DNA of 41,090 nucleotides from Acidobacteriaceae bacterium. Its GTDB lineage: Bacteria; Acidobacteriota; Terriglobia; Terriglobales; Acidobacteriaceae. Of this stretch, positions 8 to 34,577 are shown in pieces. A program made the position numbers and the translations under genes. Below the pieces are notes generated by a model that worked only from the letters and a program-made list of their open reading frames with translations, was not told where the DNA came from and did not search any database. The first letter of the stretch is position 1; every line of letters starts with the position of its first letter. The stretch spans positions 1-41,090 of the forward strand of contig JASHOY010000251.1 of assembly GCA_030038435.1 (NCBI GenBank). The letters are read 5' to 3'.

Positions 8-273
8 GGGCCTGTTCACACTATTGGGGCGGATGGCGTTGCGAGCGAAAATTCGGCCAGACGAGGCGACGGCCGAAGGCTGTGGCAGGCCCCACCGTCG
101 AGGCCGGCAACGAAGTATGGCCGAATTTACGCCGCAACCCGAAGGGATGGGGCCAGATTTCCCGATTTCGTTGTCGCTCGTCGCTCCAGGGATTGACCAC
201 AGCACGCTCCTTGCTTCTAGAACTCGGCAAATCTGGCTCCCGTCGCCGCCATCCCAATAGTGTTAACAGGCCC
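8..273. mobile_element. MITE-like element, copy 1 (266 bp, TA target duplication)
   Basis: Non-coding element bounded by inverted ends of about 30 bases: the outer 21 bases pair with one mismatch (GGGCCTGTTCAC on the left, complement of GTTAACAGGCCC on the right), and pairing continues after a 3-base gap. It is flanked by the dinucleotide TA at 6-7 and 274-275. Two further inverted arm pairs lie inside, at about 45-59/118-132 and 149-165/224-240, so a single strand could fold as a cloverleaf closed by the terminal stem. A second 266-bp copy lies at 34312-34577 with ten substitutions. A TA duplication and lack of a transposase fit a non-autonomous derivative of an IS630/Tc1-type element; the family is inferred. 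It abuts the 3' end of the DUF3147 pseudogene and supplies the last base of its present stop codon. Confidence 0.9.
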
Positions 274-716
274 TAATCGTATTTGCGTCGCCGTCCGGGC
301 AACTTGCGCAGCCGCCAGATGGCCACTGAAGTTGCCAGCCACGCCGCGCTGGCAACAATAAGTGTGATCTAGGCTGGCTCGCGTGTCATCAACTCCCAGC
401 TCATCGCCGCAAACACCAGCAGCCCAAGGCTGCCTATCGCAGTTCCGTTCACATACACCCCGGCGACGGCTCTGCCTCTGCGCCGGCCTTCAAAACCGGC
501 GCGCCGTTTCATACTCATCTCATGCTTTTCAATTAACGTTACGCTGGCCGGAAGAATTGCCGGAAAGGCCAGGAATAACCCCGCAACCATCGGCCCGTAT
601 CGTTTTCCTATGAGGCCAACAATCGCGGTGATCGCGCCGCCGAAAAGAAACCGTATCGCGTACTCACTCCAATGCGTCCGCCGCTGGCTGTCATGAATGT
701 TGAATTTGATTTTCGT
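273..716 (-). pseudogene. DUF3147-family membrane protein, decayed copy
   Basis: The reading frame encodes a DUF3147-type membrane protein: YAIRFLFGGAITAIVGLIGK followed by MVAGLFLAFPAILPAS and TLIEKHE, all typical of the family. Three lesions are visible. The expected start codon at 716-714 is ACG, although a GAGGAG ribosome site sits six bases upstream. An in-frame TAG at 371-369 interrupts the frame, after which another hydrophobic segment (LIVASAAWLATSVAIW, then a basic tail) continues in the same frame. The frame then stops at 275-273 on a TAG made from the TA duplication and the last base of the MITE. The gene directly follows its intact paralogue (15 bases apart). Translation from an internal GTG or ATG (for example the ATG at 590) could still give a fragment. 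Confidence 0.75.
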
Positions 717-731
717 GGCGCTCTCCTCAAC

Positions 732-1073
732 TCAACGCCAAAAGGCAAACCAAAATGCGAATGCGCAGGCGAACCATACAAACACCAGAACAAACGAGGC
801 GCGAAGAGCCGACCACCTTTTCGTTGTCAGCATTCGCCGCACCGCCAGTGAATACACAAAAAGCGCAACCGCGCCGCCCATCATGGACCGCGTCTCCACC
901 GCCGCGTATTCCTTTCCATCCATGCAGACGGCGAGATACAGTGTGGCCAGCGCCACCGAAGGCGCCGCTCCAAACAATCCGGCAAAGCTCTTGGGCTGGC
1001 AGGCGTCGCCGATCACTGCGAATGCTGAAACCACCAGTCCGCCAACCACAAAGCGAAGGATCAGTTCCACCAT
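732..1073 (-). CDS. DUF3147-family membrane protein
   Basis: 113 residues starting MVELILRF. The stretch VVSAFAVIGDACQPKSFAGL followed by FGAAPSVALATL is the hallmark of DUF3147, a small bacterial membrane family of unknown function. Three to four hydrophobic helices are visible, the last ending in FWFAFWR at the stop. The ATG at 1073 matches the usual family start but has only a weak ribosome site. An in-frame ATG at 1217 preceded by AAGGAG at good spacing would add 48 mostly hydrophilic residues, so a longer product is possible. It is the first of a tandem pair, the second member being a pseudogene, and it is divergent from ku, with 236 bases between the two starts. Confidence 0.75.
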   Translation of the reverse strand: MVELILRFVVGGLVVSAFAVIGDACQPKSFAGLFGAAPSVALATLYLAVCMDGKEYAAVETRSMMGGAVALFVYSLAVRRMLTTKRWSALRASFVLVFVWFACAFAFWFAFWR

Positions 1074-1309
1074 AATTGCGCCTGTAGAACTCCGGGTGCT
1101 TCGTCGCCGGCAACTTGCCGCCTGCGATGTTTTTTTCTCGAAGAACGTATATGTGCCTTTATCTCGTTGCCTCCACAACACTCGATTGGGCGTCGCGGCG
1201 TCAGGTTGTCTGGCCATGGAAAACTCCTTTTTATCGGCGGGCATCTCATCGATCTATCGAAGAGAAGGCCTCGTTCGCCTTTTTTCGGCGATATTCCGCG
1301 GAGAAGAAA

Positions 1310-2203
1310 ATGGTAGGTCGCCCGTACTGGTCAGGTCAGTTAAAGCTTTCGCTTGTCTCCTTCGGGATTCAGCTCTATCCGGCGATCAACACCCGCTCCG
1401 GAGTTACATTCCACCAGATCGATCGCGAAACCGGGCAGCGAATTCACCACGCCAATGTCGTCGATCATGATGAAGCCGTCGATAACTCGCAAATTGTCAA
1501 AGGTTACGAATATGCAAAGGGCAAATATCTGGTGGTCGAGCCGGAAGAGCTGGCAAAGCTGCGCATTCCCTCTAAGAATGTGATTGAGATTCGCCAGTTT
1601 GTCGACTTATCCGAGCTTTCCCCGGCGCTCTTCGAGAAGCCCTATTTTGTCCGCCCCGATGCCCGGGAATCCATGGAAGCGTTCGCTGTTGTAAGAAAAT
1701 CGATGGAAGATAAGAACAAGGTTGCAATCGGCGAAATCGCCTTCGGAGGGCGAGAGCACCTCATCGCCATCGCCGTGCCGCCGGAAAAATCGGCGAAGGG
1801 GATGATGGCGTACACGCTTCGCTACGCTGATGAATTGCGAAGCGCGGAAGATTACTTCGAAGATCTGCCGGATTTTCGCGCGCAACACATCGACAAAAAG
1901 CAGATTGCGATGGCCAACGAACTGGTCAACGCCTATTCCGAGCCCTTCGAATACGCCGCCTTCAAAGACGACTATGAACAAGCCTTGCACGAGCTGATCG
2001 ACGCCAAGCGGAAGAATGCGCCGCTGCCTGTGGAGGAAGAAAAACCGCGGCCAACCAGGGCCATCCATCTCATGGATGCTCTGCGCCAGAGCGTGAATCA
2101 GGCCAAACGGCCGTCGGCCGCGAAAAAAACTTCCGCCAGGGGCGCTGCGAAGAAAGGGCCGGCGCTTGTGAAACCAGAGAAAAGCAGACACAGGGCGGCA
2201 TGA
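1310..2203 (+). CDS. ku: Ku protein, DNA end-binding factor for non-homologous end joining
   Basis: 297 residues, normal for bacterial Ku. The protein begins MVGRPYWSGQLKLSLVSFGI, the typical Ku N-terminus, and contains the core signatures FHQIDRETGQRI, VVDHDEAV and KGYEYAKGKYLVVEPEEL. The homodimer forms a ring that threads onto broken DNA ends and recruits LigD. The C-terminus from about residue 245 is lysine- and alanine-rich (AKRPSAAKKTSARGAAKK), as in the extended basic tails that add DNA binding in other Ku proteins. The ATG at 1310 is chosen because the Ku fold starts there and GGAGAAG precedes it; the upstream in-frame extension has no family resemblance. It ends three bases before ligD, so the two are co-transcribed. 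Confidence 0.97.
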   Translation: MVGRPYWSGQLKLSLVSFGIQLYPAINTRSGVTFHQIDRETGQRIHHANVVDHDEAVDNSQIVKGYEYAKGKYLVVEPEELAKLRIPSKNVIEIRQFVDLSELSPALFEKPYFVRPDARESMEAFAVVRKSMEDKNKVAIGEIAFGGREHLIAIAVPPEKSAKGMMAYTLRYADELRSAEDYFEDLPDFRAQHIDKKQIAMANELVNAYSEPFEYAAFKDDYEQALHELIDAKRKNAPLPVEEEKPRPTRAIHLMDALRQSVNQAKRPSAAKKTSARGAAKKGPALVKPEKSRHRAA

Positions 2204-2206
2204 CCG

Positions 2207-4960
2207 ATGCCGACTGCTAAGTCTCGAGTCCCCGCCAGGTTCACCGGGCAACTCGCCCGTTATCGCTCCATGCGCGACTTCAATACCACCGCGGAACCCC
2301 GCGGCGAGGGCACAAAAGCGCGCAAATCCAAGACGGCTCTTCTCTTCGTAGTCCAGAAGCATGCAGCGCGGCAGTTGCACTATGATTTCCGCCTGGCGTG
2401 GAACGGAGTCCTGAAGAGCTGGGCCGTAGCCAAAGGGCCGAGCTATTTCCCCGGTCACAAGCGGCTTGCGGTTCACGTCGAAGATCATCCGCTGGAGTAC
2501 GGTAATTTTGAAGGCACCATCCCCAAAGGGCAATACGGCGGCGGCGCCGTCATGGTCTGGGATACAGGCACGTGGCAGCCGCTGGGCGATGCCGAACGCG
2601 GCTTTCGAGAAGGTCATCTCAAGTTCCAATTGAAGGGCAAAAAGCTCAAAGGAAGCTGGGCGCTCATTCGCATGCACGGGCGCGCAGACCGCTCAGGACG
2701 AGAAAATTGGCTCTTGATCAAGGAAAAAGATGAGTACGCGCGCGACGAATCGGATCCAGCCGTTGTAGATGAATCGCCGGATAGCGCGCTCACCGGCAAG
2801 AGCATCGAGCAAATCGGCAACAGCAATGGCAAGGTCTGGAACAGTTCACATGCAAGTTCAAAAACTGCCAGGCAAAATCCATCGCTCCGCCGTGATTCGA
2901 GTCCACGATCCGCTTCCGGCAAACGGCAATCGTCCGGCCTTGCCGCCTTGATGGAATCGCTGCCCAAAGAGAACTTCCCGGGTTTCATTTCTCCGCAATT
3001 GGCGCAATCCGCATCGACTCCGCCCAGCGGCGATGATTGGTTCTACGAGATCAAGCTTGATGGATACAGAATCCAGATTCACATCCGGTCGAAAGCCGGC
3101 CGGCGCCGGGTGCAACTGCTAACCCGCAAGGGTCTCGATTGGTCCGCGCGAATGCCGGAGATAGCTCGCGCGGCAATGCAACTCAACGTGGAGAGCGCAA
3201 TCCTTGACGGAGAAGCAGTTGTACTGGATGAAAACGGCATCAGCAATTTTGCAGCGCTTCAGGCTGCGTTTCAGAAAGAGAACAGGCGCGAGGTGACTTA
3301 CTTCGCCTTTGATTTACTCCACATTGCAGGACACAATACTCGCCACCTCCCTCTCGCACAGCGGAAGCAGATGCTTGCGCAATTGCTCGCGCCGTTAGAA
3401 GATCGGGCTTTGATCCGGTACAGCGAACACCTGCAGTCCGGCGGGCAAACGGTCTTCGAAAAAGCCTGCGAACTCGGAGCCGAAGGCATTATCGCCAAAG
3501 GGATGTCGAGCAAATATGTCTCGGGTCGCAGCGGGCATTGGCTGAAACTCAAATGCATTCTGCAGCAGGAGTTTGTCATTGGCGGCTTTACTCTTCCCTC
3601 GAAAGGGAGCGCCGGAATCGGCGCGCTGCTGCTGGGCTACTATGACCAAAGCAGTCTGCGCTATGCCGGGCGCTGCGGAACCGGCTTCACGCAGCAAACG
3701 CACCGCATGTTGCGCCGCAGATTAGACGCCCTCGTCCAAAAGGAGAGCCCATTTACTGCGATTCCCAGAGATGCGCAGCGCGCCGCCGTTTGGGTCAAGC
3801 CGCAGTTAGCGGCAGAAATTGCATTTACTACCTGGACGCGCGAAAACCTCGTCCGGCAGGCCTCTTTCAAGGGGCTTCGCGAGGACAAGCCGGCAAAGGA
3901 AATTGTGCGTGAAGTTGCCGTGCCGCCGGAAAACGCGGAGAGCAAGAACACCCCGGCTCGAAAGAAGCTATCATCATCCAGGCGCCGGCAACACCGTGAG
4001 TCGACATCCGTGACCGATTTTCACATTACGCACCCCGACAAAGTCCTCGACAAAGAAAGCGGAATGACCAAGCGTATGCTCGCCGAGTACTACGCCGCTG
4101 TCGCAGATCACATGCTGCCGCATATTTCAAACCGGCCGCTCAGCGTGGTGCGATGCCCGGAAGGCAGTGACAAGCCTTGCTTTTTTCAAAAGCACGTCGG
4201 GTTGGGACCGCCGCCAGGTGTCGACAGCGTGGCAGTGGTGAGCAGGAAGAGTGGCAAATCCGAAAACTATCTCAGCGTAAATTCCGCCGAAGGCTTGATC
4301 GGGCTCGCGCAAATGGGCGTACTTGAAATTCACCCCTGGGGATCGAAGAATGGTTCGCTGGAGAAGCCCGACCGAATGGTCATCGATCTCGATCCCGATG
4401 CCGCGATTGATTGGGCAACGCTCGCGCAATCCGCCCGGCAGGTAGGTGCGCTTCTCAAGCGGAGCCATCTTGAAAGCTTTCTCAAGAGCACGGGAGGGAA
4501 GGGCCTGCACGTCGTAATCCCGATCGATCCGGAGCATGAATGGGCAGTGGTGAAAAAGTTCGCTCATGAGCTGGTCTCGGAGTTGGAACGGCAAGAGCCG
4601 AGCCTCTACGTGACCAAGATGACCAAGGCGAGCCGCAAAAATCGAATCTATCTCGATTACTTGCGCAACGACCGCGACGCTACCGCAATCGCTCCGTTTT
4701 CGCCGCGCGCGCGCCGCCGAGCGCCGGTCGCCATTCCGCTGCGATGGAACGAACTGGCCGCTGACGAAATGCCGCGCTTTTATGTCTCCGGATTCAAGGA
4801 GTGGCGGGCACGGCTTCGCCAGGATCCATGGAAGGCTCTTCTCCGAACCTCCCAGCAGCTACCGGTCGACGCTTTTCAGGGCGATGGCGCCGACATCGCA
4901 ACTCGAAAAACTGCGAATCGGAGCAGCCGCAACACGCCATCGGGAGATGGAAGCACGTGA
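2207..4960 (+). CDS. ligD: ATP-dependent DNA ligase D, three-domain (PE-ligase-polymerase)
   Basis: 917 residues in the order phosphoesterase, ligase, polymerase, as in Pseudomonas LigD. The 3'-phosphoesterase domain (about 35-190) shows FVVQKHAARQLHYDFRL, EDHPLEYGNFEGTIPKG and QYGGGAVMVWDTGTW. The nucleotidyltransferase domain (about 255-560) carries motif I KLDGYR with adenylated lysine K283, and DGEAVV. The archaeo-eukaryotic primase-type polymerase domain (about 605-890) has ITHPDKVLDKESGMTK and DLDPD with metal-binding D727 and D729. A charged linker of low conservation (about 195-250) joins the first two domains. With Ku it processes and seals double-strand breaks. Its TGA stop overlaps the GTG start of the acetate-kinase-like gene, so the two are translationally coupled. 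Confidence 0.97.
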   Translation: MPTAKSRVPARFTGQLARYRSMRDFNTTAEPRGEGTKARKSKTALLFVVQKHAARQLHYDFRLAWNGVLKSWAVAKGPSYFPGHKRLAVHVEDHPLEYGNFEGTIPKGQYGGGAVMVWDTGTWQPLGDAERGFREGHLKFQLKGKKLKGSWALIRMHGRADRSGRENWLLIKEKDEYARDESDPAVVDESPDSALTGKSIEQIGNSNGKVWNSSHASSKTARQNPSLRRDSSPRSASGKRQSSGLAALMESLPKENFPGFISPQLAQSASTPPSGDDWFYEIKLDGYRIQIHIRSKAGRRRVQLLTRKGLDWSARMPEIARAAMQLNVESAILDGEAVVLDENGISNFAALQAAFQKENRREVTYFAFDLLHIAGHNTRHLPLAQRKQMLAQLLAPLEDRALIRYSEHLQSGGQTVFEKACELGAEGIIAKGMSSKYVSGRSGHWLKLKCILQQEFVIGGFTLPSKGSAGIGALLLGYYDQSSLRYAGRCGTGFTQQTHRMLRRRLDALVQKESPFTAIPRDAQRAAVWVKPQLAAEIAFTTWTRENLVRQASFKGLREDKPAKEIVREVAVPPENAESKNTPARKKLSSSRRRQHRESTSVTDFHITHPDKVLDKESGMTKRMLAEYYAAVADHMLPHISNRPLSVVRCPEGSDKPCFFQKHVGLGPPPGVDSVAVVSRKSGKSENYLSVNSAEGLIGLAQMGVLEIHPWGSKNGSLEKPDRMVIDLDPDAAIDWATLAQSARQVGALLKRSHLESFLKSTGGKGLHVVIPIDPEHEWAVVKKFAHELVSELERQEPSLYVTKMTKASRKNRIYLDYLRNDRDATAIAPFSPRARRRAPVAIPLRWNELAADEMPRFYVSGFKEWRARLRQDPWKALLRTSQQLPVDAFQGDGADIATRKTANRSSRNTPSGDGST

Positions 4961-6207
4961 AAATCCTGGTCTTCAATCCCGGCAGCAATTCTTTGAAGGC
5001 TGGGGTCGTGCGTTGCCATCCGGCGCAGGAAACCGCGGCAGACGGCGAGAAACTCGTCGAAGTGATCTGCGAAGGAATCGGTGCCGAAGCAAAGCTTTCA
5101 GTCTATCGAGGTAAAAAGATTGCCGGCAGCGAGTCTATCCAGGCGCAAGACTTTGGCGAAGCCGCCGCTGCCATTCTCCAATGGTTGATGCAAGGCAAAG
5201 GGCCGCACCAGGGGCTCGCAGACGGGCTTGCATGCATCGGCGTCAGAGTGGTCCACGGCGGATCGCACTTTACAGAGCCAGTGGAAATCACTCCGGAAGT
5301 CGAGCGGGAGATCAACGAGCTAGCCAAGTGGGCGCCACAGCACAATCCTAGTTCCATTTCAATTTTGTCCCCCATAAGAGAGCGCTTTGAGAAAGTGCCG
5401 ATGATCGCCGTATTCGACACCGCATTCCATCGCACCATCGGTGATATAGCCGGGCTTTATCCGATTCCATTCGAAATCTCTGAACGCCACGGCATTCGCC
5501 GCTTCGGCTTCCACGGCATTTCACACCGTTACCTCATGGAACGTTATGCGCAGATTGTCAGGCGCAAGCCTGCGGAACTGAAGATGATTACTATGCACCT
5601 GGAAAGTGGGTGCTCTGCAACGGCAATTGCCGAGGGTCGTTCCGTAGACACAACCATGGGCCTGACGCCGCTGGAAGGGCTGATGATGGGCACGCGCTGC
5701 GGCAATGTCGACCCAGCATTGCCCGCCTATCTGATGCAGGCCGAGGGAATCGAAATGAGCGAAGTGATGCACATTCTGGAGAAGCAGTCCGGACTGCTCG
5801 GCGTTTCAGGCAAGTCGCTTGACACGCGCGTATTGATGCGCCACTACGAAGCAGATGAGCGAGTACGCCTTGCCATGGAGATGTTTTCCTACCGGGTGCT
5901 CAAGGCCGCAGGCGCATTCATTGCCGCTCTCGGCGGCGTCGATGCCCTTATCTTCGGCGGCGGCATCGGAGAGAACAACACGTTGCTCCGGCAGCGAGTT
6001 TGCGATGGACTGCGCTGGTGTGGACTCCGGATGGATCCGGAAAGCAACAGGACGGTCATTGACGTGGAAGGCCGCCTGTCCTCCGAAGATTCACGCGTTC
6101 AAGCCCACGTGATTCCCACGGAAGAAACATTGCAGATTGCGCACGAATGCTCTGTGACGCTTGAAGCCGCCAATTCGCGGCAACATCGGGCAGTGGCGCA
6201 GAGTTAG
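4957..6207 (+). CDS. Acetate kinase family protein (acetokinase/propionate kinase type)
   Basis: 416 residues with the ASKHA acetate-kinase fold: NPGSNSLKAGVV near the N-terminus, VRVVHGGSHFTEPVEITPEV, FDTAFHRTIGDIAGLYPIPF, RFGFHGISHRYL, SVDTTMGLTPLEGLMMGTR, GGGIGENN and VIPTEETLQIA. The family interconverts acyl phosphate plus ADP with the acid plus ATP. The catalytic Arg, His, Asp and Glu positions are present, but the usual HLGNG phosphate loop reads HLESG, so activity or substrate may differ from housekeeping AckA. The GTG at 4957 is chosen because it fits the family N-terminus; it overlaps the ligD stop as GTGA. No phosphotransacetylase is nearby. Its role next to ku and ligD is unknown; ATP or acetyl-phosphate supply is speculation. 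Confidence 0.88.
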   Translation: MKILVFNPGSNSLKAGVVRCHPAQETAADGEKLVEVICEGIGAEAKLSVYRGKKIAGSESIQAQDFGEAAAAILQWLMQGKGPHQGLADGLACIGVRVVHGGSHFTEPVEITPEVEREINELAKWAPQHNPSSISILSPIRERFEKVPMIAVFDTAFHRTIGDIAGLYPIPFEISERHGIRRFGFHGISHRYLMERYAQIVRRKPAELKMITMHLESGCSATAIAEGRSVDTTMGLTPLEGLMMGTRCGNVDPALPAYLMQAEGIEMSEVMHILEKQSGLLGVSGKSLDTRVLMRHYEADERVRLAMEMFSYRVLKAAGAFIAALGGVDALIFGGGIGENNTLLRQRVCDGLRWCGLRMDPESNRTVIDVEGRLSSEDSRVQAHVIPTEETLQIAHECSVTLEAANSRQHRAVAQS

Positions 6208-6268
6208 TTTTGCTTTCTCAAAATCGGCCAGGGCGGCGCACCTCGGTGACGGTGCATCTATATTGGTC

Positions 6269-6421
6269 ATGATTCGTAAACTTAAATCCGGACAATTTCG
6301 CTTGTATTCGCGTAAGAAAAATGCAAGAACCGGGAAGAGGCGCAATTTAGGCACCTTCTCTTCGCTCGAACAGGCCAAACAGCACGAGCGGGAAGTGCAA
6401 TTCTTCAAGCGCCATCACTGA
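6269..6421 (+). CDS. Small basic protein, unknown function
   Basis: 50 residues beginning MIRKLKSGQFRLYSRKK, with TGKRRNLGTF and a KQHEREVQFFKRH end. It is strongly basic and has the look of a conserved small protein of soil bacteria (single compact beta-alpha unit, lysine/arginine-rich), not a chance frame. A longer in-frame start at 6161 would overlap the end of the acetate-kinase gene and adds sequence without family character. It sits 61 bases after the kinase and 28 bases before the DUF3175 gene, in the same direction, as part of the ku-ligD run. No function is recognised; nucleic-acid binding is a guess from charge alone. Confidence 0.65.
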   Translation: MIRKLKSGQFRLYSRKKNARTGKRRNLGTFSSLEQAKQHEREVQFFKRHH

Positions 6422-6449
6422 GGCTCCAGGCCTCTGCGGAGGATTCGAG

Positions 6450-6761
6450 ATGCCGAGTTCAAGAAAAGCATCGGGGACAAAAAAGAACGCGAACCGGTGG
6501 TCAGGAAATGTGAAAACCGTTTCTACATTTCCACCGCCTGACCTTTTCACGAAGGATGCAAGAACCATTGCGCGGTCTCTGGCTTCCAAGAAGGTTTCGC
6601 CCAAGGGGCCGGGCTCAGGGATGCGCATGTTGACGTTTTATATCAACCGGGCTGGAAAAAACTTAAGCCGCGCGCGCCATGTTGAATTGGAGAAAGCGAA
6701 GAAGTTGCTATCGGAGCGCGTCCATGCCGCGCATGCAGCCCGCTCGAAGCGGGCCGCGTGA
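6450..6761 (+). CDS. DUF3175-family protein
   Basis: 103 residues. The pattern RWSGNVK, then LFTKDARTIARSLASKK, then MRMLTFYINRAGKNL and a C-terminal helix beginning ELEKAKKLL matches DUF3175, a family of small soluble proteins of unknown role. The start is supported by GGAGG seven bases before the ATG. The N-terminus is rich in Ser, Lys and Arg and the C-terminus ends RSKRAA, so the whole protein is basic. It belongs to the same-direction run after ku, ligD and the acetate-kinase gene; such small basic proteins near ku/ligD suggest a link to DNA protection, which is inference only. Confidence 0.8.
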   Translation: MPSSRKASGTKKNANRWSGNVKTVSTFPPPDLFTKDARTIARSLASKKVSPKGPGSGMRMLTFYINRAGKNLSRARHVELEKAKKLLSERVHAAHAARSKRAA

Positions 6762-6874
6762 CTGTTGATGGCGAGAATCGCTCCGGGAGTCAGCAGATGA
6801 TCCTGTGGTCACGGACATCGGAATGAATTGTTGCTGCATCCCAATCGATTTGGTGCTCGACACAAGGAGTTGGA

Positions 6875-7294
6875 ATGCCATCAAAACAGACGGTCACAAA
6901 AGCCAAGCGGGAATTGCGAGAAGGTAAATCGCCAAAGACCGCGGCGGGCGAGTTCGTGTACGAAGAGATTGAGCACGTCAGGCAAGGCAAGCATGGAGCA
7001 AGATCGCCGCGACAAGCCATTGCCATTGGCCTCAGCGAAGCGCGCCGTTCCGGAATCCCTGTGCCGCCAAAGAAGAATGCAGGTGTAGCGACAAAGAAAA
7101 AGGCGGAGCGCGAGATTAAGAAAGGCAAGTCATCGTCAAAGAACACAAAAGAGGCTTCGAGTAAGCGAAGCAGCGCGCGTGTGCAGGTAATGAAGCGCGA
7201 ACCCAAGAACACCACCGGTCACGCTGCGCTTTCACGCCATGCCAAAGCAGCAGCCAAGAGGCGCAAGAGTTCATCGAACCGCAAAGCGGCGTGA
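6875..7294 (+). CDS. DUF6496-type basic protein
   Basis: 139 residues. The first 60 residues carry the DUF6496 pattern: AKRELREGKSPKTAAGEFV, EEIEHVRQGKHGARSPRQAI and AIGLSEARRSGIPVPP. The remainder is a low-complexity Lys/Ser/Arg tail (KKKAEREIKKGKSSSKN, AAAKRRKSSSNRKAA) resembling histone-like tails. AAGGAG lies five bases before the ATG, supporting the start. The family has no proven function; the basic tail suggests binding to DNA or RNA. It closes the ku-ligD gene run; the next gene encodes a membrane protein. Confidence 0.75.
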   Translation: MPSKQTVTKAKRELREGKSPKTAAGEFVYEEIEHVRQGKHGARSPRQAIAIGLSEARRSGIPVPPKKNAGVATKKKAEREIKKGKSSSKNTKEASSKRSSARVQVMKREPKNTTGHAALSRHAKAAAKRRKSSSNRKAA

Positions 7295-7400
7295 AGGAGC
7301 GGTTGACTAACATTCCCAAAGCACGCTATCGCCGAGCCGCAATCGAGGCAATGAGGAGAAGCGCGAGAAAGAAACCGCCGAGTGTTCCCTTCGGGTTTGG

Positions 7401-8006: not shown

Positions 8007-8010
8007 CGCG

Positions 8011-26333: not shown

Positions 26334-26355
26334 CTCTATTCTCCTCGCATCGTGT

Positions 26356-26365
26356 TATCGTGATA
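26356..26365. promoter_or_regulatory. TATC/GATA palindrome upstream of ahcY, putative regulator site
   Basis: TATCGTGATA is a palindrome apart from its two central bases, 23 bases upstream of the ahcY start, with a further TATC half-site at 26376-26379. A winged-helix ArsR-type dimer would be expected to bind such an element; the divergent ArsR-methyltransferase gene is the natural partner. Assignment is by position, not by a remembered consensus. Confidence 0.5.
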
Positions 26366-26421
26366 TGTTGATGTGTATCAGAAACCACCGGAGCCGTCAA
26401 CCGCTCTTCCATTGCAACTTC

Positions 26422-26479
26422 CCCCGGAAGGGGAAACGAAAATAGCTCAGGTCAAGCGGAGCGCAGCCCTGGGAACAGG
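26422..26479. repeat. Dispersed palindromic repeat, copy A (leader)
   Basis: About 58 bases beginning CCCCGGAAGGGG and containing ACGAAAATAGC and AGCGCAGCCCTGGGAACAGG. It matches a stretch inside the coding sequence of the divergent-downstream regulator gene at 26912-26970 with about 50 of 59 positions equal and one single-base indel. Short hairpins (CCCC/GGGG and CCCTG/CAGGG) are visible, as in REP-like elements. Confidence 0.7.
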
Positions 26480-26499
26480 GATCAACGTGACGGATGCGC

Positions 26500-26542
26500 C
26501 CGGGAGGGTCGCTGCGAACGACCCGATCTCCGACCCTCCCGG
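26500..26542 (+). other. Perfect 12-base stem-loop in the leader of the ArsR-methyltransferase gene
   Basis: CCGGGAGGGTCG at 26500-26511 pairs with CGACCCTCCCGG at 26531-26542, a 19-base loop between. It ends 41 bases before the regulator start. With no T run after it, it could be an RNA structure in the leader, a protein site, or part of the adjacent palindromic repeat. Confidence 0.6.
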
Positions 26543-26583
26543 CAAAACTAACCCCGGCACTTCAGCCCGAGGGATAAACACTC

Positions 26584-27759: not shown

Positions 27760-27820
27760 CCCATTGATACCCCCGGAAAATGAGTTCGACTTGTCACTTC
27801 CCCGAGTCGGAAACCTTGAT

Positions 27821-28705
27821 ATGCTGTTCACAACAATGCTCCGTAGGCAACGTACAATCCTCCGCGTTCTAAGCGCAGCGAATGGCATGGTAACCGCTAC
27901 GCAACTCCAGAAATTTACGTTCCTGCTCAGGGAAGAAACGATTCTTGGTCAGGATGGTGCGTTCTACGAGTTTCTTCCCTATCGGTTCGGCGCATATTCC
28001 TTCGCTGCACAGCGAGAGATCGAAGCTCTGACAACATACGGCTATATCGAATCCACTCGGTCCTCCCTAAATCTCACGGATACCGGCGAGAAGGAGGCAA
28101 GTCATGTGGACAGCGATACCGCACGCGCGGTCCTCGCCATCGTTTCAAAGTATGGAAGGATACCTCTGAATAGCCTATTGAGGGATGTTTATCGCCGATA
28201 TCCGTGGTACGCGTCCAAAAGCGACCGCAAAGATCTAATGCCGGCGAAAATGCCAGAGCTAAAGGCTGCGCCAATTGCGGTTTACACGATGGGGTATGAA
28301 GAACGCTCGGTGGACGGCTTTCTCAATAAGTTGCTTCGCACGGGGATACGGCGGATTATCGATGTTCGAGCGAACGCCGTATCCCGAAAATATGGCTTTG
28401 CGCGAAGCTCGCTTTCCACTTTGGCTGGGAAGCTAGGACTTGGATATTGCCATTGCCCGGAGTTGGGAATTTCTTCGGCAAAGCGCCGCGAAGTTGAGAC
28501 TCCCTCGGAATTCCGTGAACTCTTCGGGTATTATGAACGTCAGATTCTGCCAATTAAAGCGGACGAAGTGGCCAAAGTCGCGGCGCTGATAAAGAGCGTG
28601 CCTTCGGTTCTTGTCTGCATGGAAAAGGAGGCGGTGGACTGCCATCGCAGCCGGCTGGCCGCTCGAATCACGGCTCTCACGGATTTGAACGTCGTCCATC
28701 TATGA
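27821..28705 (+). CDS. Winged-helix/YwgA-like domain fused to DUF488
   Basis: 294 residues from this ATG. The N-terminal part (about 1-120) resembles YwgA/Panacea-type helical domains: LQKFTFLLREETILG, FLPYRFGAYSFAAQREIEAL and a LNLTDTGEKEA strand. The C-terminal part is DUF488: VYTMGYEERSVDGFLNKLL, IIDVRANAVSRKYGFARSSL and LVCMEKEAVDCHRSRLAARI with the conserved cysteines. DUF488 function is unknown. A TTG at 27764 in frame would add 19 residues; the ATG is preferred because of GGAAA upstream. G+C is visibly lower than in the flanking genes. The partner gene starts one base after this stop, so the two form a two-gene unit. Confidence 0.78.
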   Translation: MLFTTMLRRQRTILRVLSAANGMVTATQLQKFTFLLREETILGQDGAFYEFLPYRFGAYSFAAQREIEALTTYGYIESTRSSLNLTDTGEKEASHVDSDTARAVLAIVSKYGRIPLNSLLRDVYRRYPWYASKSDRKDLMPAKMPELKAAPIAVYTMGYEERSVDGFLNKLLRTGIRRIIDVRANAVSRKYGFARSSLSTLAGKLGLGYCHCPELGISSAKRREVETPSEFRELFGYYERQILPIKADEVAKVAALIKSVPSVLVCMEKEAVDCHRSRLAARITALTDLNVVHL

Positions 28706-28706
28706 A

Positions 28707-29522
28707 ATGACGGAACACCTCAGGGTCCTCATCACGGTTAAAACCTTTCCGATCCCATCTTCAAAGTATGACGAGCTTGTATGCACCGCCGGCGTAAATG
28801 AGCAGGGCGATTTTGTCCGTCTATATCCGATCAATTTTCGCGACCTACCTTTCAGCCAGCAGTATAAGAAATATCAATGGCTCGAAGTGGATGCGGTGAA
28901 ACACACCGGGCGGGATTCGCGGAAGGAGAGTTACCGGCCGGACTGCGACTCCATACGTCTTCGCGGAGAGCCAATCTCCTCGCGTAACAATTGGGAGGAT
29001 CGCGCTCGCTTTGTCCTCGCCAAGCAATCCGGGTCAATTGAAGAGTTATATGCGAAGCAGGAACTGGACAAGACCTCGCTTGGTATTTTCCGCCCCAAGG
29101 AGGTGTCCGATCTCATAATTGCACCCACTGAAGCGGATTGGAAACCGGGCTTTAAGGCCGCTCTGATGCAGCAGAGACTCTGGGAGAACCGCAGGGCCAG
29201 CAAGGAGCCGCTTCGCAAGGTCCCGTTTAAGTACCAATACAGATTTTCCTGCGAGGACGTTCGGTGCAACGGAAAGCACCAAATGATGATCGAGGATTGG
29301 GAGATTGGTGTGCTGTATTGGAAATGCGTCGACGGTGGCGCAACACCGCAAGAGGCATGCGACAAAGTCAAGCAGAAGTTCCTTGAGCAAATATGCGCTC
29401 CAGAACGAGACACGCATTTCTACGTAGGTACGGTGTTGGCGCATCCAAAGTCGTGGGTCATTATCGGCATTTTCTGGCCGAGGAAGAGCGTGTCATCGTT
29501 AGCGCAAGGCTCGCTTTTCTGA
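28707..29522 (+). CDS. Conserved hypothetical protein, partner of the DUF488 gene
   Basis: 271 residues, soluble. Recognisable stretches are LITVKTFPIPSSKYDELVCT, GDFVRLYPINFRDLPF, and RFSCEDVRCNGKHQMMIEDW, a Cys-x4-Cys-x3-His pattern that may hold a metal. The RLYP and C-x-H regions recur, as far as I recall, in a family commonly encoded next to DUF488 proteins, but no function is known to me. The ATG is one base after the upstream stop, so translation is coupled. The low G+C shared with its partner suggests joint acquisition. A role in nucleic-acid handling or defence is speculation. Confidence 0.7.
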   Translation: MTEHLRVLITVKTFPIPSSKYDELVCTAGVNEQGDFVRLYPINFRDLPFSQQYKKYQWLEVDAVKHTGRDSRKESYRPDCDSIRLRGEPISSRNNWEDRARFVLAKQSGSIEELYAKQELDKTSLGIFRPKEVSDLIIAPTEADWKPGFKAALMQQRLWENRRASKEPLRKVPFKYQYRFSCEDVRCNGKHQMMIEDWEIGVLYWKCVDGGATPQEACDKVKQKFLEQICAPERDTHFYVGTVLAHPKSWVIIGIFWPRKSVSSLAQGSLF

Positions 29523-29817
29523 GCGCAAACGGCGGTAATCCGTCCCTAACACCATCGCTCCCACGTCCATTAACATTGCATCGAACCACCAGAGCCAGGC
29601 CATGCCGCCAGCCACATCCGACCAACCCGCACAATCCACCACCAAACCGGCTCACCTGACCCGCGCCCGCCGCGCCGCCATCCTCAAAGCCCTCGCCGTT
29701 CACCACGCGTGCGGTTAATGGTCTGCGTCTACTGCCTGTTTCCAGACATCTGAAGATCTTTCCGGCGGCGGGGGTGATCGCGCACAGTATCCCGGTCCAA
29801 AGCGTACGCGCAAATGC
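29523..29817. other. Intergenic region with a possible gene remnant
   Basis: About 295 bases between the DUF488 partner gene and the DUF2306 gene (convergent). Apart from the short frame at 29602-29718 it holds nothing recognisable; no clear terminator hairpin with a T run was found. Confidence 0.4.
29602..29718 (+). pseudogene. Possible truncated gene start (38 codons)
   Basis: A 38-residue frame beginning MPPATSDQPAQSTTKPAHLT and continuing with an Arg/Ala-rich helix (RARRAAILKALA). Codon use is C-rich at third positions, unlike the lower-G+C gene just upstream, and the helix looks like the beginning of a longer cytoplasmic protein. The frame stops abruptly at TAA. It could be the 5' remnant of a gene lost when the neighbouring module arrived, or chance. 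Confidence 0.25.
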
Positions 29818-30552
29818 TTACACAGCAGAGGTTGCTCTAATGTGAGGCCCCCCGGTTGATTTGAGCCAGATCTCAATGACCATCCAGTTGATAGAGAAAC
29901 CGATCCAGAAGGCGATCCCGAAGAATTGCCGCGGGCCGAGGTGCGTTAAATGGCTGGTAGCGAAAAACAATCCCATCACGGGCCGGGTGGTCGCGATGCC
30001 GAGCAGAATGACGACAGCTCGCATCAGCCAGCGTCTCTTTTGCGTTAGCCGGCCCTGGGCCCTGTAAAGCAAGGCTCGGTAGAGCGAGAAAAGGAACAGA
30101 CTGTTGTAGAAGAGCACAGCGCTGCGCTCGGTCCATCCGCCGATGGAATACACGCTCATTGCGTAAGCCGTGACGCCGACAACGATTCCAAGTGGGAACA
30201 GCCAGCGTTCAGGCCATTTAAGATGGGAAAACTCGCGCAGGACGGCGAATGGCAACAGCACCACGAATGCCAGGGCGGGAAGAATATGCGCGAGGGTCAA
30301 CGCCGTGTGAGAAGCGAATGCCCGATCGAGATTCATCATCTGCGGTGGCGTGGATGGCGATGGCAACGCAAGTGCGAGGAGGCGTCGGATGACGGCTGCG
30401 GCCGCGATTGCAATACACGACCAGAACCCGATCCATAGCCATTGCGGCACGAAACCATCCCGGGCCGAACTCGGCTGCGCAGATCGGGCGCTACGGATCG
30501 ACTGTTTTTGTCCCGATATTGACTGCATCGCAGATCGCCCTTTCCATCTCAT
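29818..30552 (-). CDS. DUF2306-type predicted membrane protein
   Basis: 244 residues with about six hydrophobic helices after a polar N-terminus: WLWIGFWSCIAIAAAAVIRR, LAHILPALAFVVLLPFAVLR, WLFPLGIVVGVTAYAMSVYS, then AVVILLGIATTRPVMGLFFA. The histidine-containing helix and the TRPVMG region match DUF2306 proteins, a family of unknown function. The ATG at 30552 begins the longest frame; an ATG at 30528 with AGGG upstream would remove eight residues. It is the third gene of a run following the Spy/CpxP-like gene and the secreted protein, 34 bases after the latter. Confidence 0.7.
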   Translation of the reverse strand: MRWKGRSAMQSISGQKQSIRSARSAQPSSARDGFVPQWLWIGFWSCIAIAAAAVIRRLLALALPSPSTPPQMMNLDRAFASHTALTLAHILPALAFVVLLPFAVLREFSHLKWPERWLFPLGIVVGVTAYAMSVYSIGGWTERSAVLFYNSLFLFSLYRALLYRAQGRLTQKRRWLMRAVVILLGIATTRPVMGLFFATSHLTHLGPRQFFGIAFWIGFSINWMVIEIWLKSTGGPHIRATSAV

Positions 30553-30586
30553 GCCACCGGCGTTTCAGCAGATCTTTTTTCCCGAT

Positions 30587-31558
30587 TCATGGTCTCGGTT
30601 GAGAGTTTGAAGCTAAGATTTGACGGTCGGAGCCGGATGCGAGCCATGGTCCGAATTTTCTGGCAGAGACGAGAAATGAACCTCGCACGCCGTTCTGCTC
30701 AATGGACAGACTCTGTAGCCTGGGTCGCATGCTGGTGGACAGGTCGACAGGTAGGACGCGAGCCTCGGCCAGCAATCCAGATAAGTACGATGCCTTCTGG
30801 CTGCTCACGACATGAACGGCAAAATCGATCCGGTCAGTCGAGCCATAGTGAATCCCGAAGGTAAACTCGTCTGCCCCATCGAGGATGTGTGTCCAGGGAG
30901 CATGCAACTGCTCCGATTCTACGTTCCGGGCAAACATGGGCGACGACATCAGCAGCACATTCCAGGATTCCACGTCCTTATGGAGATCGCGGAGACAGTG
31001 GACAAGCCGTGGATCGGGACCTGACTTGCTTCGATAACGATCTAATGCCCGCCGAACGATTCCTGGACTTCCGAAAATCGCCAGGTGGTCATCGATAACC
31101 GCCATCCATCGCGATGCCGCAGTTGTTCCCTTCTCACGGGCGAACGGTTTCACAACCAGCACGTGTTGCCCGCAATACTGGGTGACAGAAGCGCCATTCG
31201 CGAGAGCCGCGCGGTAGATGAGTTCCCCATCGAATTGGCCGGCCAACAGCACCAGATGCTGGCTGAGTTCTTGACCTCCAAAAGATGCGGCCACCTCGAT
31301 AATTTCGTCGGCTCGCCGCTGCGGATCGACACCGCTGAGAGAGATCCAATCCTGGAGATCAAGACTGGTCTTGCGACTGAGCAGAAGCAGCCAGCCGTTT
31401 ACGGGAGGATTATGCGGATCTTCAATGCCGGCCACAAACTGCGCTCCCTCGGGAACGAGTGCCAGCACCTTGCTGTCCGCGGGGGAAGCAACGGCGGCAG
31501 CCGTGGCGGACAGGAATAACAGAACAATTACGACGAAGGGTCTGAGGTTGAAAGACAC
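30587..31558 (-). CDS. Secreted protein of unknown function
   Basis: 323 residues. An N-terminal signal peptide is clear (FVVIVLLFLSATAAAVASPA, cleavage near VAS-PA). The mature protein is soluble with alternating strands and helices (KVLALVPEGAQFVAGIEDPH, VASPADSKV region, WMAVIDDHLAIFGSPGIVRR); no family is recognised. The GTG start has GAGGAA upstream at good spacing. It begins seven bases after the stop of the Spy/CpxP-like gene and is therefore probably under the same envelope-stress promoter. Periplasmic location is inferred from the signal peptide. Confidence 0.75.
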   Translation of the reverse strand: MSFNLRPFVVIVLLFLSATAAAVASPADSKVLALVPEGAQFVAGIEDPHNPPVNGWLLLLSRKTSLDLQDWISLSGVDPQRRADEIIEVAASFGGQELSQHLVLLAGQFDGELIYRAALANGASVTQYCGQHVLVVKPFAREKGTTAASRWMAVIDDHLAIFGSPGIVRRALDRYRSKSGPDPRLVHCLRDLHKDVESWNVLLMSSPMFARNVESEQLHAPWTHILDGADEFTFGIHYGSTDRIDFAVHVVSSQKASYLSGLLAEARVLPVDLSTSMRPRLQSLSIEQNGVRGSFLVSARKFGPWLASGSDRQILASNSQPRP

Positions 31559-31565
31559 GATTTCC

Positions 31566-32057
31566 TCACTTTTCTGCAGGGATATCGCCTATCCGGTCTG
31601 CGATGTGGTCAAGCCGTGAGCTCCAGTGCCTTCGGAGCTCGTCCGCTTTCGTGCGTTGTGCAGGAGTCAGTACCTGAAAGTAGATCCTGCCGGTGAGCTT
31701 TTCCTTTTCCACGATCAACTTGGCGAGCGTGGCGCCCTGGCGCGCGGCGATTTCCTGGATTTCTCCCTCGTCGGATGCGCCACCCTGGTGCGTGACCGCA
31801 TCCATTTCTTTCTGTTCGGAGGCGAGCTCGTGGACGAGTTGCGCAAGATTCGGGCGCTCGCCTTCCCAAATGGACTTGATTTGCGACTTCTGTGCGTGGC
31901 TCAAATCCAGTTCGTGCGTGACGTAACCCATCGGTCCGTGATGGAACCAGAACGCACCGCGAGCTCCGTGCCATTGTTGTGTTTCTGTCCAAGCGGCGGT
32001 GATGCCGACAACAATCAACGCCACACCCAAGCTTTTCCAAAAGATCCTTCGCATCAT
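31566..32057 (-). CDS. Spy/CpxP-family periplasmic protein
   Basis: 163 residues. A hydrophobic N-terminal segment (FWKSLGVALIVVGITAAW) serves as signal or anchor. The mature part is helical with two LTxxQ-like motifs: DLSHAQKSQIKSIWEGER and VLTPAQRTKADELRRHW, the hallmark of the Spy/CpxP family of periplasmic chaperones and stress sensors. It is divergent from a response regulator and histidine kinase, the same arrangement as cpxP-cpxRA of enterobacteria. A GTAAA-N5-GTAAA box lies 71 bases upstream of its start, on the shared regulatory region. Start ATG-ATG at 32057-32052. Confidence 0.88.
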   Translation of the reverse strand: MMRRIFWKSLGVALIVVGITAAWTETQQWHGARGAFWFHHGPMGYVTHELDLSHAQKSQIKSIWEGERPNLAQLVHELASEQKEMDAVTHQGGASDEGEIQEIAARQGATLAKLIVEKEKLTGRIYFQVLTPAQRTKADELRRHWSSRLDHIADRIGDIPAEK

Positions 32058-32117
32058 GGGAGCACCTGGCTACACTTCCATACCAGCATCGGAACAACTG
32101 GAGTGCGATCAAGATTG

Positions 32118-32142
32118 GTTAAGGAGAGTAAAGTTTTGTAAA
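32118..32142. promoter_or_regulatory. CpxR-type box, GTAAA-N5-GTAAA with an extra half-site
   Basis: GTAAAGTTTTGTAAA at 32128-32142 is a perfect GTAAA-N5-GTAAA repeat, the consensus bound by enterobacterial CpxR. A third degenerate copy, GTTAA at 32118-32122, keeps the same 10-base period. The array lies between the Spy/CpxP-like gene (start 32057) and the response-regulator gene (start 32192), positioned to control both. Confidence 0.75.
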
Positions 32143-32191
32143 TGCGGGGCGCGCGATTCCGGCTATGGAATAGGATCGGAGAGTGTATTGA

Positions 32192-32887
32192 ATGTCTATG
32201 GATCGAGTGCTGATCATCGACGACGACATCGATCTTTGCGAATTACTCGCGGCGCGCATGAGCGGCGAAGGCTTCGAAATCGAAGCGGTGCATGAGGGCG
32301 CCCATGGACTCGAGCGGGCACTGTCTCGCGAGTATTCGCTGGTCGTGCTGGATCTTATGCTTCCCGGGATGGGCGGGCTGGAAGTGCTGCGCCGTATGCG
32401 CGCGCAATCTCCGATTCCGGTGCTGATCCTGACCGCCCGCAGCGAAGACGTCGATCGAATTCTGGGACTGGAGATGGGCGCCGACGACTATCTGCCGAAG
32501 CCATTCAATCCCAGAGAGCTGATTGCGCGAATCCGCGCAATCCTGCGGCGCGCCCAATCTCCTGCTGCATCGGACGGACCGCTGGTCCTCGGATCTCTGC
32601 GAGCAGATCCTTCAACTCGCGAGGCATGGGCGGGAGAAATGCCGCTGGAACTGACGAGCGTGGAATTCTCGCTGCTGGAGACGTTCCTGCGGAGTCCAGG
32701 CCGGACGTTGAGCCGCGAATATCTGACGGAGACCATCCTCGGCCGCAAATCAACTCCCTTCGATCGCGCAGTCGATGTACACGTCAGCAATCTTCGCCGA
32801 AAAATCACGGCTGCAGGGGGCGGCGAATGGATCAAGGCAATCCGCGGTAACGGATACCTTTTTGCGGCCAGGGTCAGGCACGCATGA
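32192..32887 (+). CDS. OmpR-family response regulator, CpxR-like
   Basis: 231 residues. The receiver domain has the acidic pocket (D10-D12 in VLIIDDDIDL), phospho-acceptor D54 in VVLDLMLPGMGG, T81 in LILTARSEDV and K103 in DDYLPKPF. The C-terminal winged helix (about 130-228) is OmpR type: LELTSVEFSLLETFLRSPGR, then RAVDVHVSNLRRKI and IKAIRGNGYLF. Phosphorylated by the kinase encoded next, it would bind tandem repeats. The stop overlaps the kinase ATG (ATGA). The GTAAA repeats upstream suggest self-regulation and control of the divergent Spy/CpxP-like run. Confidence 0.95.
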   Translation: MSMDRVLIIDDDIDLCELLAARMSGEGFEIEAVHEGAHGLERALSREYSLVVLDLMLPGMGGLEVLRRMRAQSPIPVLILTARSEDVDRILGLEMGADDYLPKPFNPRELIARIRAILRRAQSPAASDGPLVLGSLRADPSTREAWAGEMPLELTSVEFSLLETFLRSPGRTLSREYLTETILGRKSTPFDRAVDVHVSNLRRKITAAGGGEWIKAIRGNGYLFAARVRHA

Positions 32888-34260
32888 GACGAGTGATCTT
32901 CGGTTCGTTGTTCGTCCGAATCTTCCTTTGGTTCTGGATGACGGTTGTGGCGACCGGGATCGCCCTGATCCTGACGTTGGTGGTCCAGCATACTTCCATA
33001 CCCAATCGTTGGAATGGCATGTTGGCGGGCAATGCGCGGTACGAAGGGAATCTGGCGATTGACGAACTCGAACATGGCGGCATCGATGCCGTGAACCTTT
33101 ACTTAAATCAACTTGCACACGAGGGACATTTGCGGGCCTGCCTGTTCGATGCGCACGGCGCCTTCATTGCCGGCCGGCAATGCACTTCGTTTCAGGACCT
33201 GATGTACCGTGTGGCGCATGGCGAGGAGCCCGCGCTCAACATGCGTTTTGGGATGGCGCGAGCCGCGATGCGCATCCGAGCTGGCGATGGCAGGGTATAT
33301 ATCTTCGCCACCGAGCTCCCGGTGGGGCCGAGAGCTGCGTTTGGCGCAGGACGCCGTTTGTTTCTGTGGGAGTGGGCGATTGCATTTCTCGTTTCCGGCT
33401 GCATCTGCTGGCTGCTAACCCGCCATATTACGCGGCCGATTCTGGAATTGCGCCATTCCACACGGCAACTGGCAGAGGGAGATTTGAACACTCGCGCTGG
33501 CGCCAATGCCGCCCACAGGCGCGATGAGATCGGGGCGCTGATCGCAGACTTCAACCTGATGGCCAATCGCATCGATACGCTGGTTACGGGGCAGAGGCAG
33601 CTTATCTCCGATATTTCCCACGAACTCCGTTCTCCGCTTGCCCGCCTCAACGTGGCGCTCGACCTGGTGCGCAGCGACAAAAGTGTGTCGATGGCGTACG
33701 AGCATATGGAGCGGGATCTGGCTTCGCTCGACGAATTGATTGAACGGCTGCTTACAATCGCGCGTCTGGACGCATCACCAGCGCCGTCGCCGGCGACGAC
33801 GGTGAATTTCTCCGGCCTAGTCGCCCAAATCGTTCGCGATGCGGAATTCGAATCCCAGAAAAAGAACATCGGCCTGCGCCTGAATTCCGCGGACGAGGTC
33901 CGCGTCCAAGGCAATGCTGCACTGCTCAGTAGCGCGGTTGAAAACGTGGTGCGAAACGCCATCCATTACACGGTCACGGGGAGTTCAGTCGAAATCTCTC
34001 TTACAAGGGAAGTTTCACCGAAAGGACAGAATGCGCGGCTTGTTATTCAGGACCACGGACCAGGTGTTCCCGAGGCGGAATTGCAGAATATTTTCCGCCC
34101 TTTCTATCGAACTGCGGAAGCGCGAGACCGCAAATCCGGTGGCGCCGGTCTGGGCCTGGCCATCGCTGAGAGAGTGGTGCTAGCGCATCACGGCACAATC
34201 ATCGCCAGAAACCTGGAGGCGGGGGGACTTGAGATTACGATCACATTGCCTGCCGAGTGA
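32884..34260 (+). CDS. Sensor histidine kinase, CpxA-like
   Basis: 458 residues. TM1 is at about 10-35, a periplasmic domain of about 125 residues follows, and TM2 is at about 160-180. A HAMP linker (TRHITRPILELRHSTRQLAE) leads to the HisKA dimerisation helix with H246 in SDISHELRSPLARL, then the ATPase domain with N-box VENVVRNAIHYT, G1 box QDHGPGVPEAEL and G2 region KSGGAGLGLAIAERVV. It would sense envelope stress, with the Spy/CpxP-like protein as possible inhibitor, and phosphorylate the regulator just upstream. The gene overlaps the regulator by four bases. Confidence 0.95.
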   Translation: MRRVIFGSLFVRIFLWFWMTVVATGIALILTLVVQHTSIPNRWNGMLAGNARYEGNLAIDELEHGGIDAVNLYLNQLAHEGHLRACLFDAHGAFIAGRQCTSFQDLMYRVAHGEEPALNMRFGMARAAMRIRAGDGRVYIFATELPVGPRAAFGAGRRLFLWEWAIAFLVSGCICWLLTRHITRPILELRHSTRQLAEGDLNTRAGANAAHRRDEIGALIADFNLMANRIDTLVTGQRQLISDISHELRSPLARLNVALDLVRSDKSVSMAYEHMERDLASLDELIERLLTIARLDASPAPSPATTVNFSGLVAQIVRDAEFESQKKNIGLRLNSADEVRVQGNAALLSSAVENVVRNAIHYTVTGSSVEISLTREVSPKGQNARLVIQDHGPGVPEAELQNIFRPFYRTAEARDRKSGGAGLGLAIAERVVLAHHGTIIARNLEAGGLEITITLPAE

Positions 34261-34311
34261 GCGAGTTTCCACCTCTTCAATGCATCTGCCGGTGCATTAG
34301 GGACGAATCTA

Positions 34312-34577
34312 GGGCCTGTTAACACTATTGGGGTGGATGGCGTTGCGAGTGTAAATTCGGCCAGACGAGGTGACGGCCGAAGGCTGTGGCAGGCCCCACC
34401 GTCGAGGCCGGCAACGAAGTATGGCCGAATTTACCCCGCAACCCGAAGGGACGCGGCCAGATTTGCCGATTTCGTTGTCGCTCGTCGCTCCAGGGATTGA
34501 CCACAGCACGCTCCTCGCTTCTAGAACTCGGCAAATCTGGCTCCCGTCGCCGCCATCCCAATAGTGTTAACAGGCCC
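34312..34577. mobile_element. MITE-like element, copy 2 (266 bp, TA target duplication)
   Basis: Same length as copy 1 (8-273) and the same orientation, with ten substitutions and no indels. Here the outer 21 bases of the inverted ends pair perfectly (GGGCCTGTTAACACTATTGG). TA flanks it at 34310-34311 and 34578-34579. The internal arm pairs are kept. It occupies most of the 382 bases between the convergent kinase and GH2 genes. This copy is likely closer to a movable state because its ends match better. Confidence 0.9.

Follow-up and report, generated by a model that had tools for sequence, protein, structure and literature searches.

A folded core conserved across Acidobacteriota in miniature transposable elements that exchange their ends

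Results

One core, four types of ends

The stretch of DNA analyzed here, the window, comprises 41,090 nucleotides (contig JASHOY010000251.1, assembly GCA_030038435.1) from an Acidobacteriaceae bacterium. It carries two 266-bp copies of an element that has terminal inverted repeats, no transposase, and multiple dispersed copies, the hallmarks of miniature inverted-repeat transposable elements (MITEs). An earlier note on this DNA described both copies and missed the main finding reported here: one core is conserved across the phylum while the ends around it are exchanged. In order, the element consists of one half of an end stem of about 28 bp (P1), a hairpin (arm A), a nine-base mini-hairpin (P3, CCC-GAA-GGG), a second hairpin (arm B), and the other half of P1. 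On balance, we favor a reading in which such MITEs insert at TA, are moved in trans by IS5-group transposases, and are built of an end stem and an exchangeable core that is kept as folded DNA, the fold pairing the two ends. We observed multiple copies, shared ends, empty sites and one clean TA duplication in relatives, one clear swap of ends, and compensatory changes whose events show no strand preference.

Our core set comprised 95 unique complete cores, drawn from 127 complete among 190 joined matches, with 14 of the 95 from the window's own genome. Keeping only complete cores biases the set against inverted or truncated ones. The core of about 212 bp (arm A, a CCC-NNN-GGG mini-hairpin, and arm B) is common to elements with four IS5-group end types, T1 to T4. 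Seventy-eight of the 95 had one type at both ends, 11 had one unrecognized end, and 6 combined near-identical types; T1, T2, T3, and T4 were never mixed within an element (0/95).

On a tree of the cores, built quickly and weak at many forks, at least 14 changes of end type are needed, or 9 with near-identical types merged. The clearest swap lies in a clade with a Shimodaira-Hasegawa-like approximate likelihood ratio (SH-aLRT) support of 99, where L204, with T2 ends, stands beside L185, L188, and L118, all with T1 ends. The L204 core is identical to those of the T1 members at 203-204 of 212 positions (204 for L188), compared with 192 of 212 for L153, which has T2 ends like its own. Identity stops at the base of both arms, which is the four-way junction. 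The tree and this one junction support a modular, two-part build in which cores are exchanged between end stems. Copies with T1, T2, and T3 ends occur together in assemblies JASHTU and JASHOC, and gene conversion bounded by the unlike ends would be the simplest cause of the swaps.

The ends match IS5-group insertion sequences

TA lies outside 113 of 130 recognized ends and on both sides in 42 of 51 elements. We compared these ends with 43 insertion-sequence loci, 28 of which had a clear end pair (read by eye, duplicates included). The IS5-group insertion sequences with matching ends come from the same bacterial family. Their T1 ends (GGGCGTGTTMACACT; L107, L110, and L112) are one base off the MITE, and the T2 ends (GAGCCTGTTATTAACTT) are identical to it over 17 nt at both ends of L108. 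T3 ends (GGGCGTATCGACATATA) are one base off (16/17) at one end each of L105 and L235, and the T4 end (GGGCGTGTCATCAAACTC) is identical over 18 nt at one end of L232.

The transposases match NCBIfam NF033580 (IS5 family) and the Pfam domains DUF4096 and DDE_Tnp_1. They are encoded by two open reading frames (ORFs) in L107 and L105, each L107 half scoring below the NCBIfam cut-off, and by one in L108; we take the relevant IS5 group to be the two-ORF, IS427-like one. DUF4096 matched in 4 of 10 genomes searched, and relatives of the first L107 ORF, many of them weak, appeared at E 0.001 in 82 of 300 genomes of the family. The window's own genome contains T3- and T2-like insertion sequences. Around lone ends in that genome, ORF lists (contigs C276, C188, and C395) and a Pfam search of five ORFs revealed no transposase.

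Because the ends are shared with IS5-group elements, an IS5-group transposase fits as the mobilizer. The earlier note had proposed an IS630/Tc1-type transposase; this is unsupported, as the matching ends sit on IS5-group elements, IS630 families not having been searched as such. Its more general proposal, that the element is non-autonomous, targets TA, and relies on a transposase encoded elsewhere, was borne out.

Nothing in the 43 insertion-sequence loci matched a profile of the core or element. The core is thus no obvious leftover of these loci, and likeness to an insertion sequence ends within about 20 bp of the element end. On these grounds we rejected a plain internal-deletion MITE; a parent insertion sequence may lie outside our sample.

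Empty sites in relatives, one with a single TA

A comparison with empty sites, suggested in the earlier note, succeeded in a relative rather than in the window genome. The filled site in L089 reads CACTA-element-TAGACC, and the empty site in L203 reads AACTACACC, with a single TA. For the L283 element, 10 of 19 fetched loci were checked and the site was continuous in 9: the flank matches were one base apart in eight and four bases apart in one, and the tenth locus was rearranged. The left flank of the filled site is TCA and the empty sites have CTA, which means that the duplication has changed in one of its copies. For the window copies, no empty site was seen in their own genus among the matches listed, where 44 of 59 genomes matched, nearly all via the element and with partial flanks. 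Separately, the element at L203:3016 is absent from L089 (near 100-220), where a leftover of the right end points to imprecise deletion.

Paired positions change together without strand preference

Predicted pairs underwent 107 same-branch double changes, 93 of them restoring Watson-Crick pairing, compared with a null of 23.7 (sd 4.2) and with 11-22 for slid pairs. None of 500 shuffles reached the covariation on any of five measures; the structure had been predicted from the same sequences whose pairs were then counted.

Selection on an RNA is expected to make single steps to G-U outnumber steps to A-C. For pairs predicted on both strands, we counted 27 GT and 26 AC single-step events in the core, compared with 43 and 12 in RNase P from 30 genomes of the same family (Fisher p 0.0045 versus the core). 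The ratio is also near even on all pairs (68:60, and 88:90 in a separate count). Predicting the structure on a single strand biases the count toward that strand (60:35 and 35:51), which leaves the common pair set as the only neutral one. The equal GT and AC events, set against the RNase P excess, argue for folded DNA rather than RNA, and this strand test supports a core kept as folded DNA on either strand. Consistently, the window had no Rfam match at gathering cut-offs, and 10 loci searched at E 0.5 matched only a neighboring tRNA.

The mostly unpaired motifs AACGAAG and CTCCTC show 0-2 changes per site, and the three P3 loop positions 9, 23, and 9.

The mini-hairpin loop and G-A motifs

The P3 loop is GNA in 71 and TNC in 9 of 94 cores (80/94), and it follows one of these two patterns in 19 of 21 elements elsewhere in the phylum and on plasmids. 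Its middle base is hypervariable, with G and A outside. Single changes fell 15 times on the middle base and 5 times on the outer two, where 1:2 was expected (p 1.7e-4, ties resolved towards GNA); since the copies are related, p-values for the loop counts are too small. DNA mini-hairpins with a GNA loop and closing G-C pairs are known for extraordinary stability (PMC4686876).

Across 120 arms folded with DNA parameters, GA-opposite-GA internal loops were predicted 46 times on the arm strand and TC-opposite-TC never, and the density of the motif SGAS is 3.5 to 9 times higher there. In DNA, tandem mismatches of G and A are stable. The motif lies on opposite strands in the two arms, as would suit a DNA dyad.

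In the window's family, a model of arm A recognized none of 39 reversed B arms. Outside the family, 4 of 21 reversed B arms scored at least 10 bits with it, compared with 0 of 420 shuffles; this test covered 21 of 22 other elements, L300 and L301 having been excluded beforehand as incomplete.

The core extends across the phylum and onto plasmids

Further copies in related genomes, which the earlier note anticipated, were found in 49 of 300 genomes of the family and in 13 of its 79 genera; many were full-length matches with 68-81% identity (at most two candidates were scored per genome). A pattern scan of named genome contigs returned at least 95 stretches; among the matches listed, all were Acidobacteriaceae, Acidobacteria, or genera thereof, including Terriglobus albidus, Silvibacterium, Terracidiphilus, and Acidobacterium. 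Cores are present in both Terriglobus albidus and Silvibacterium bohemicum. Some surveyed genomes and named records are apparently identical assemblies.

A covariance model of arm A plus P3, run with stricter filters across the phylum, matched in 52 of 396 genomes, 43 of them outside the family and spread over 13 other families (best E per genome outside the family 4e-14 to 4e-4). We inspected 20 of these out-of-family places, covering 11 of the 13 families. Most have TA, arm A, P3, and a second arm, and their ends are mostly unlike those of the window. By eye, the second arm looks different in L289 and L292. In several genomes of one family (f24) the model matched both element halves in opposite orientation, so that in these genomes arm B resembles arm A in inverted form. 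Model matches numbered 29 in genome G066, 11 each in G128 and G638 (some two per element), 4 in G119, 3 each in G324 and G484, and 2 in G217; 6 of the 13 genomes scanned for these counts had none. L300 and L301, which come from a different family of Acidobacteriota, appear to carry a single arm.

Outside Acidobacteriota, the element was detected by blastn on plasmids of Azotobacter chroococcum, Pseudomonas aeruginosa PA83, and Halomonas sp. PA16-9. The predicted folds are again cloverleaves (RNA parameters), and the right end of L314 is degraded. No annotated feature lies under the plasmid matches, the Halomonas record being practically unannotated. A fifth plasmid query (L294) again matched Azotobacter and Halomonas, and four other element types gave no plasmid match. 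Searches of phages and IMG/VR with one query and one exact pattern found none.

Gene context followed no clear orientation rule over 62 places judged from crude ORFs: 29 were tandem (18 same, 11 opposite orientation), 13 divergent, 11 convergent, and 5 inside an ORF, and an ORF enters the element in 22. The element is unnamed in titles and abstract starts of open PMC text, ISfinder and subscription papers lying outside that search.

Copies and size variants in the window's own genome

The own assembly (6.4 Mb, 512 contigs, 94.5% complete, 7% estimated contamination) yielded 35 good element matches, with 40 scored out of 57 candidates, in line with the earlier note's call for a host-genome search. 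There are 16 complete copies, eight of 266 bp and eight of 309 bp; 15 are complete in one match (eight and seven, respectively), and a further 309-bp copy on contig C18 was read as two pieces. At 18 of the 35 places the match touches a contig end, the contig stopping inside a copy or at its edge, so a single element may in some cases have been counted as two halves.

The 309-bp class carries a 43-bp palindrome, resembling repetitive extragenic palindromic (REP) units, inserted at one place in the arm A loop (L012, L014, L015, L016, L021, L052, L058, and L060). Such palindromes are also present in L090, L120, L148, L165, L175, L178, L185, L189, L193, and L202. They are 40-44 bp long (CCGGGGTCCCC...GGGGTGG) and differ in sequence between genomes. 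In other genomes, they lie at or near the same place in the arm A loop, or in a few elements in P3 or arm B. At the other extreme, core-less copies of about 50 bp consist of the two ends only (L065:1029-1081 and L062:3140-3189).

The two window copies

Copy 1 (8-273) and copy 2 (34312-34577) are both on the forward strand and, as the earlier note had it, measure 266 bp each and differ at exactly 10 positions (96% identity). The other features it described also hold: the inverted ends match at 20 of the first 21 positions in copy 1 and 21 of 21 in copy 2, both copies have two internal inverted arms, and TA flanks both on both sides (6-7 and 274-275 for copy 1, 34310-34311 and 34578-34579 for copy 2), presumably as target duplications. 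Complete copies are too short to encode a transposase.

The modules were placed on this same strand from the predicted fold, with the boundary of P1 taken from the end-swap junction. In copy 1, the left half of P1 with its terminal inverted repeat spans 8-35, arm A 36-137, arm B 147-247, and the right half of P1 with its terminal inverted repeat 248-273; the covariance model of arm A plus P3 matches at 36-150. The corresponding intervals in copy 2 are 34312-34339, 34340-34441, 34451-34551, and 34552-34577. P3, placed by sequence and loop analysis, occupies 138-146 and 34442-34450.

As single-stranded DNA, each copy is predicted to fold into a four-way cloverleaf (z -7.5 for copy 1, -10.8 for copy 2), and none of 200 shuffles did as well in either case. 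When the ten differences were scored by pairing in each copy (RNA parameters), element positions 10, 23, 41, 60, and 154 were paired in copy 2 only, 39 and 143 in copy 1 only, 124 and 141 in both, and 205 in neither. The earlier statement that most of the pairing is kept is therefore fair.

Copy 2 is flanked by a histidine kinase gene, whose stop lies at 34260, and a converging glycosyl hydrolase 2 gene, whose stop lies at 34643. The contig begins 7 bases before copy 1, and a multi-domain DNA ligase D gene occupies 2207-4960.

Discussion

Proposed movement in trans and a fold that may pair the ends

We propose that IS5-group DDE transposases would act in trans on these TA-inserting elements. 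The outer module would be the P1 stem of about 28 bp with its terminal inverted repeats, matching one or another IS5-group end type, and the inner module the core of about 212 bp (arm A, P3, arm B). Exchange of cores among end stems would most simply come about through gene conversion involving copies that share a cell, and several transposase lineages could thereby have carried the same core. Whenever the element becomes single-stranded, as in lagging-strand gaps, DNA uptake, or conjugation, or is extruded, the arms and P3 would fold. Folding would draw both ends into one double-stranded P1 stem, the sequence bound by the transposase. The fold would then serve a short element as a transposase-independent pairing device and so have a role in its spread.

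Several points weigh against this reading. Transposition itself and movement in trans are steps that we infer. The own assembly, 94.5% complete, yielded no T1-type transposase, its two matches reaching 37% and 33% identity, and DUF4096 had no match in G119, G128, and G217, one-contig genomes with copies. An IS630-family transposase gene, the only IS630 gene we met, lies beside the Azotobacter copy (L314:231-1366). The end-only copies of about 50 bp and the single-arm copies L300 and L301 suggest that the core is no strict requirement. A tally of sequences rather than events favors GT over AC (248:106 with all pairs, 38:30 with common pairs). A further sequence count gave 97:46, with 22 of the 97 from one pair; it used 38 of 81 rows, below 92% identity, and one further row set kept 39 of 43 rows. 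RNase P alone served as the RNA control. Unpaired core sites show 5.3 changes per site and paired sites 4.4. Finally, the interior of arm B is inverted between intact stem halves in L157:7603-7869, and by parsimony the P3 loop flips exactly twice. Hairpin template switching therefore occurs, and it can yield compensatory changes without selection.

A stronger version of the idea, which we put forward tentatively, sees the elements as a widely distributed class of folded-DNA parasites. The single-stranded DNA cloverleaf, with its GNA mini-hairpin at the junction and tandem G-A steps in its arms, would itself be selected and passed among IS5 lineages by exchange of end stems. It could have spread in Acidobacteriota and some Gammaproteobacteria by presenting a double end, already paired, to any TA-specific transposase.

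The main rival to the fold model is upkeep by template switching alone. The element would then be an ordinary IS5-group MITE with a functionless core, its arms kept alike by quasipalindrome correction and its spread due to horizontal transfer and gene conversion. The inverted arm B and the exact loop inversions show that the process runs, it predicts the equal GT and AC events, core-less and single-arm copies exist, and unpaired sites are overall not slower than paired ones. We nevertheless find this account rather doubtful. AACGAAG and CTCCTC hardly change while the P3 loop changes often, the loop obeys the GNA rule, tandem GA is biased to one strand, and the core is recognizable in 13 further families and on gammaproteobacterial plasmids though the inspected ends differ. 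Selection and template switching may act together in keeping up the fold.

That the core is a mobile structured RNA, transcribed and acting as RNA as for ERIC or Correia elements, seems improbable. Strong covariation, a strong fold, and the excess of GT by sequence count would suit it, and other bacterial MITEs act through RNA according to excerpts of PMC2229807. It is opposed by the even events without a G-U excess where RNase P has one, by the lack of an Rfam match for the window or the 10 loci, and by the mixed gene-context orientation over the 62 places. We likewise give little credence to arms that are double-stranded sites for a host protein (nucleoid protein, gyrase, or methylase) in a mere dyad: the reversed B arms recognized outside the family and the GA-rich tracts on the arm strand would suit this, but duplex binding needs no compensatory pair changes and no reversed B arm was recognized within the family.

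Relation to known elements

ERIC, IRU, and RU-1 of enterobacteria resemble the present element in their TA ends, family-wide repetition, and stable stem-loop; ERIC is 127 bp long with reported effects at the RNA level, whereas the element here is a 266-bp four-way cloverleaf (PMC2229807). Pneumococcal RUP likewise targets TA and is moved in trans, with IS630-Spn1 as the proposed mover, whereas the ends here match IS5-group elements (PMC2229807). REP, BIME, and REPIN sequences are also inverted pairs of imperfect hairpins, but their units are 20-40 bp and tied to tyrosine transposases, and here REP-like units are inserts (PMC3116915, PMC2817692, PMC3733652). CIR of Caulobacter and Brucella shares two linker-joined hairpin arms, intergenus conservation, and TA ends; compared by description, it is portrayed without an end-pairing stem and with GANTC at the loop (PMC2229807). 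GANTC occurs anywhere in the core in 42 of our 95 cores. We know of no end swapping in ERIC, IRU, or RU-1. IS5-family MITEs are like the element in their TA target, in the 16-20 bp of end shared with IS5-group elements, in being non-coding, and in their length of about 270 bp. They differ in that no insertion-sequence interior was found here and one folded core sits on unlike ends.

The element probably explains contig breaks in such assemblies, as at the 18 of 35 own places that reach a contig end. The usual view is that MITEs are defunct leftovers of one insertion sequence. In the present case, a single folded core seems to outlive its transposases and to change its ends, so that the fold, not the ends, looks like the lineage. 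That the core is kept across the phylum with swapped ends suggests a role for the DNA fold itself in spread. Should the fold promote mobility, it would link DDE transposition to single-stranded DNA, and, if true, the element would offer a phylum-wide marker for recombination between mobile elements.

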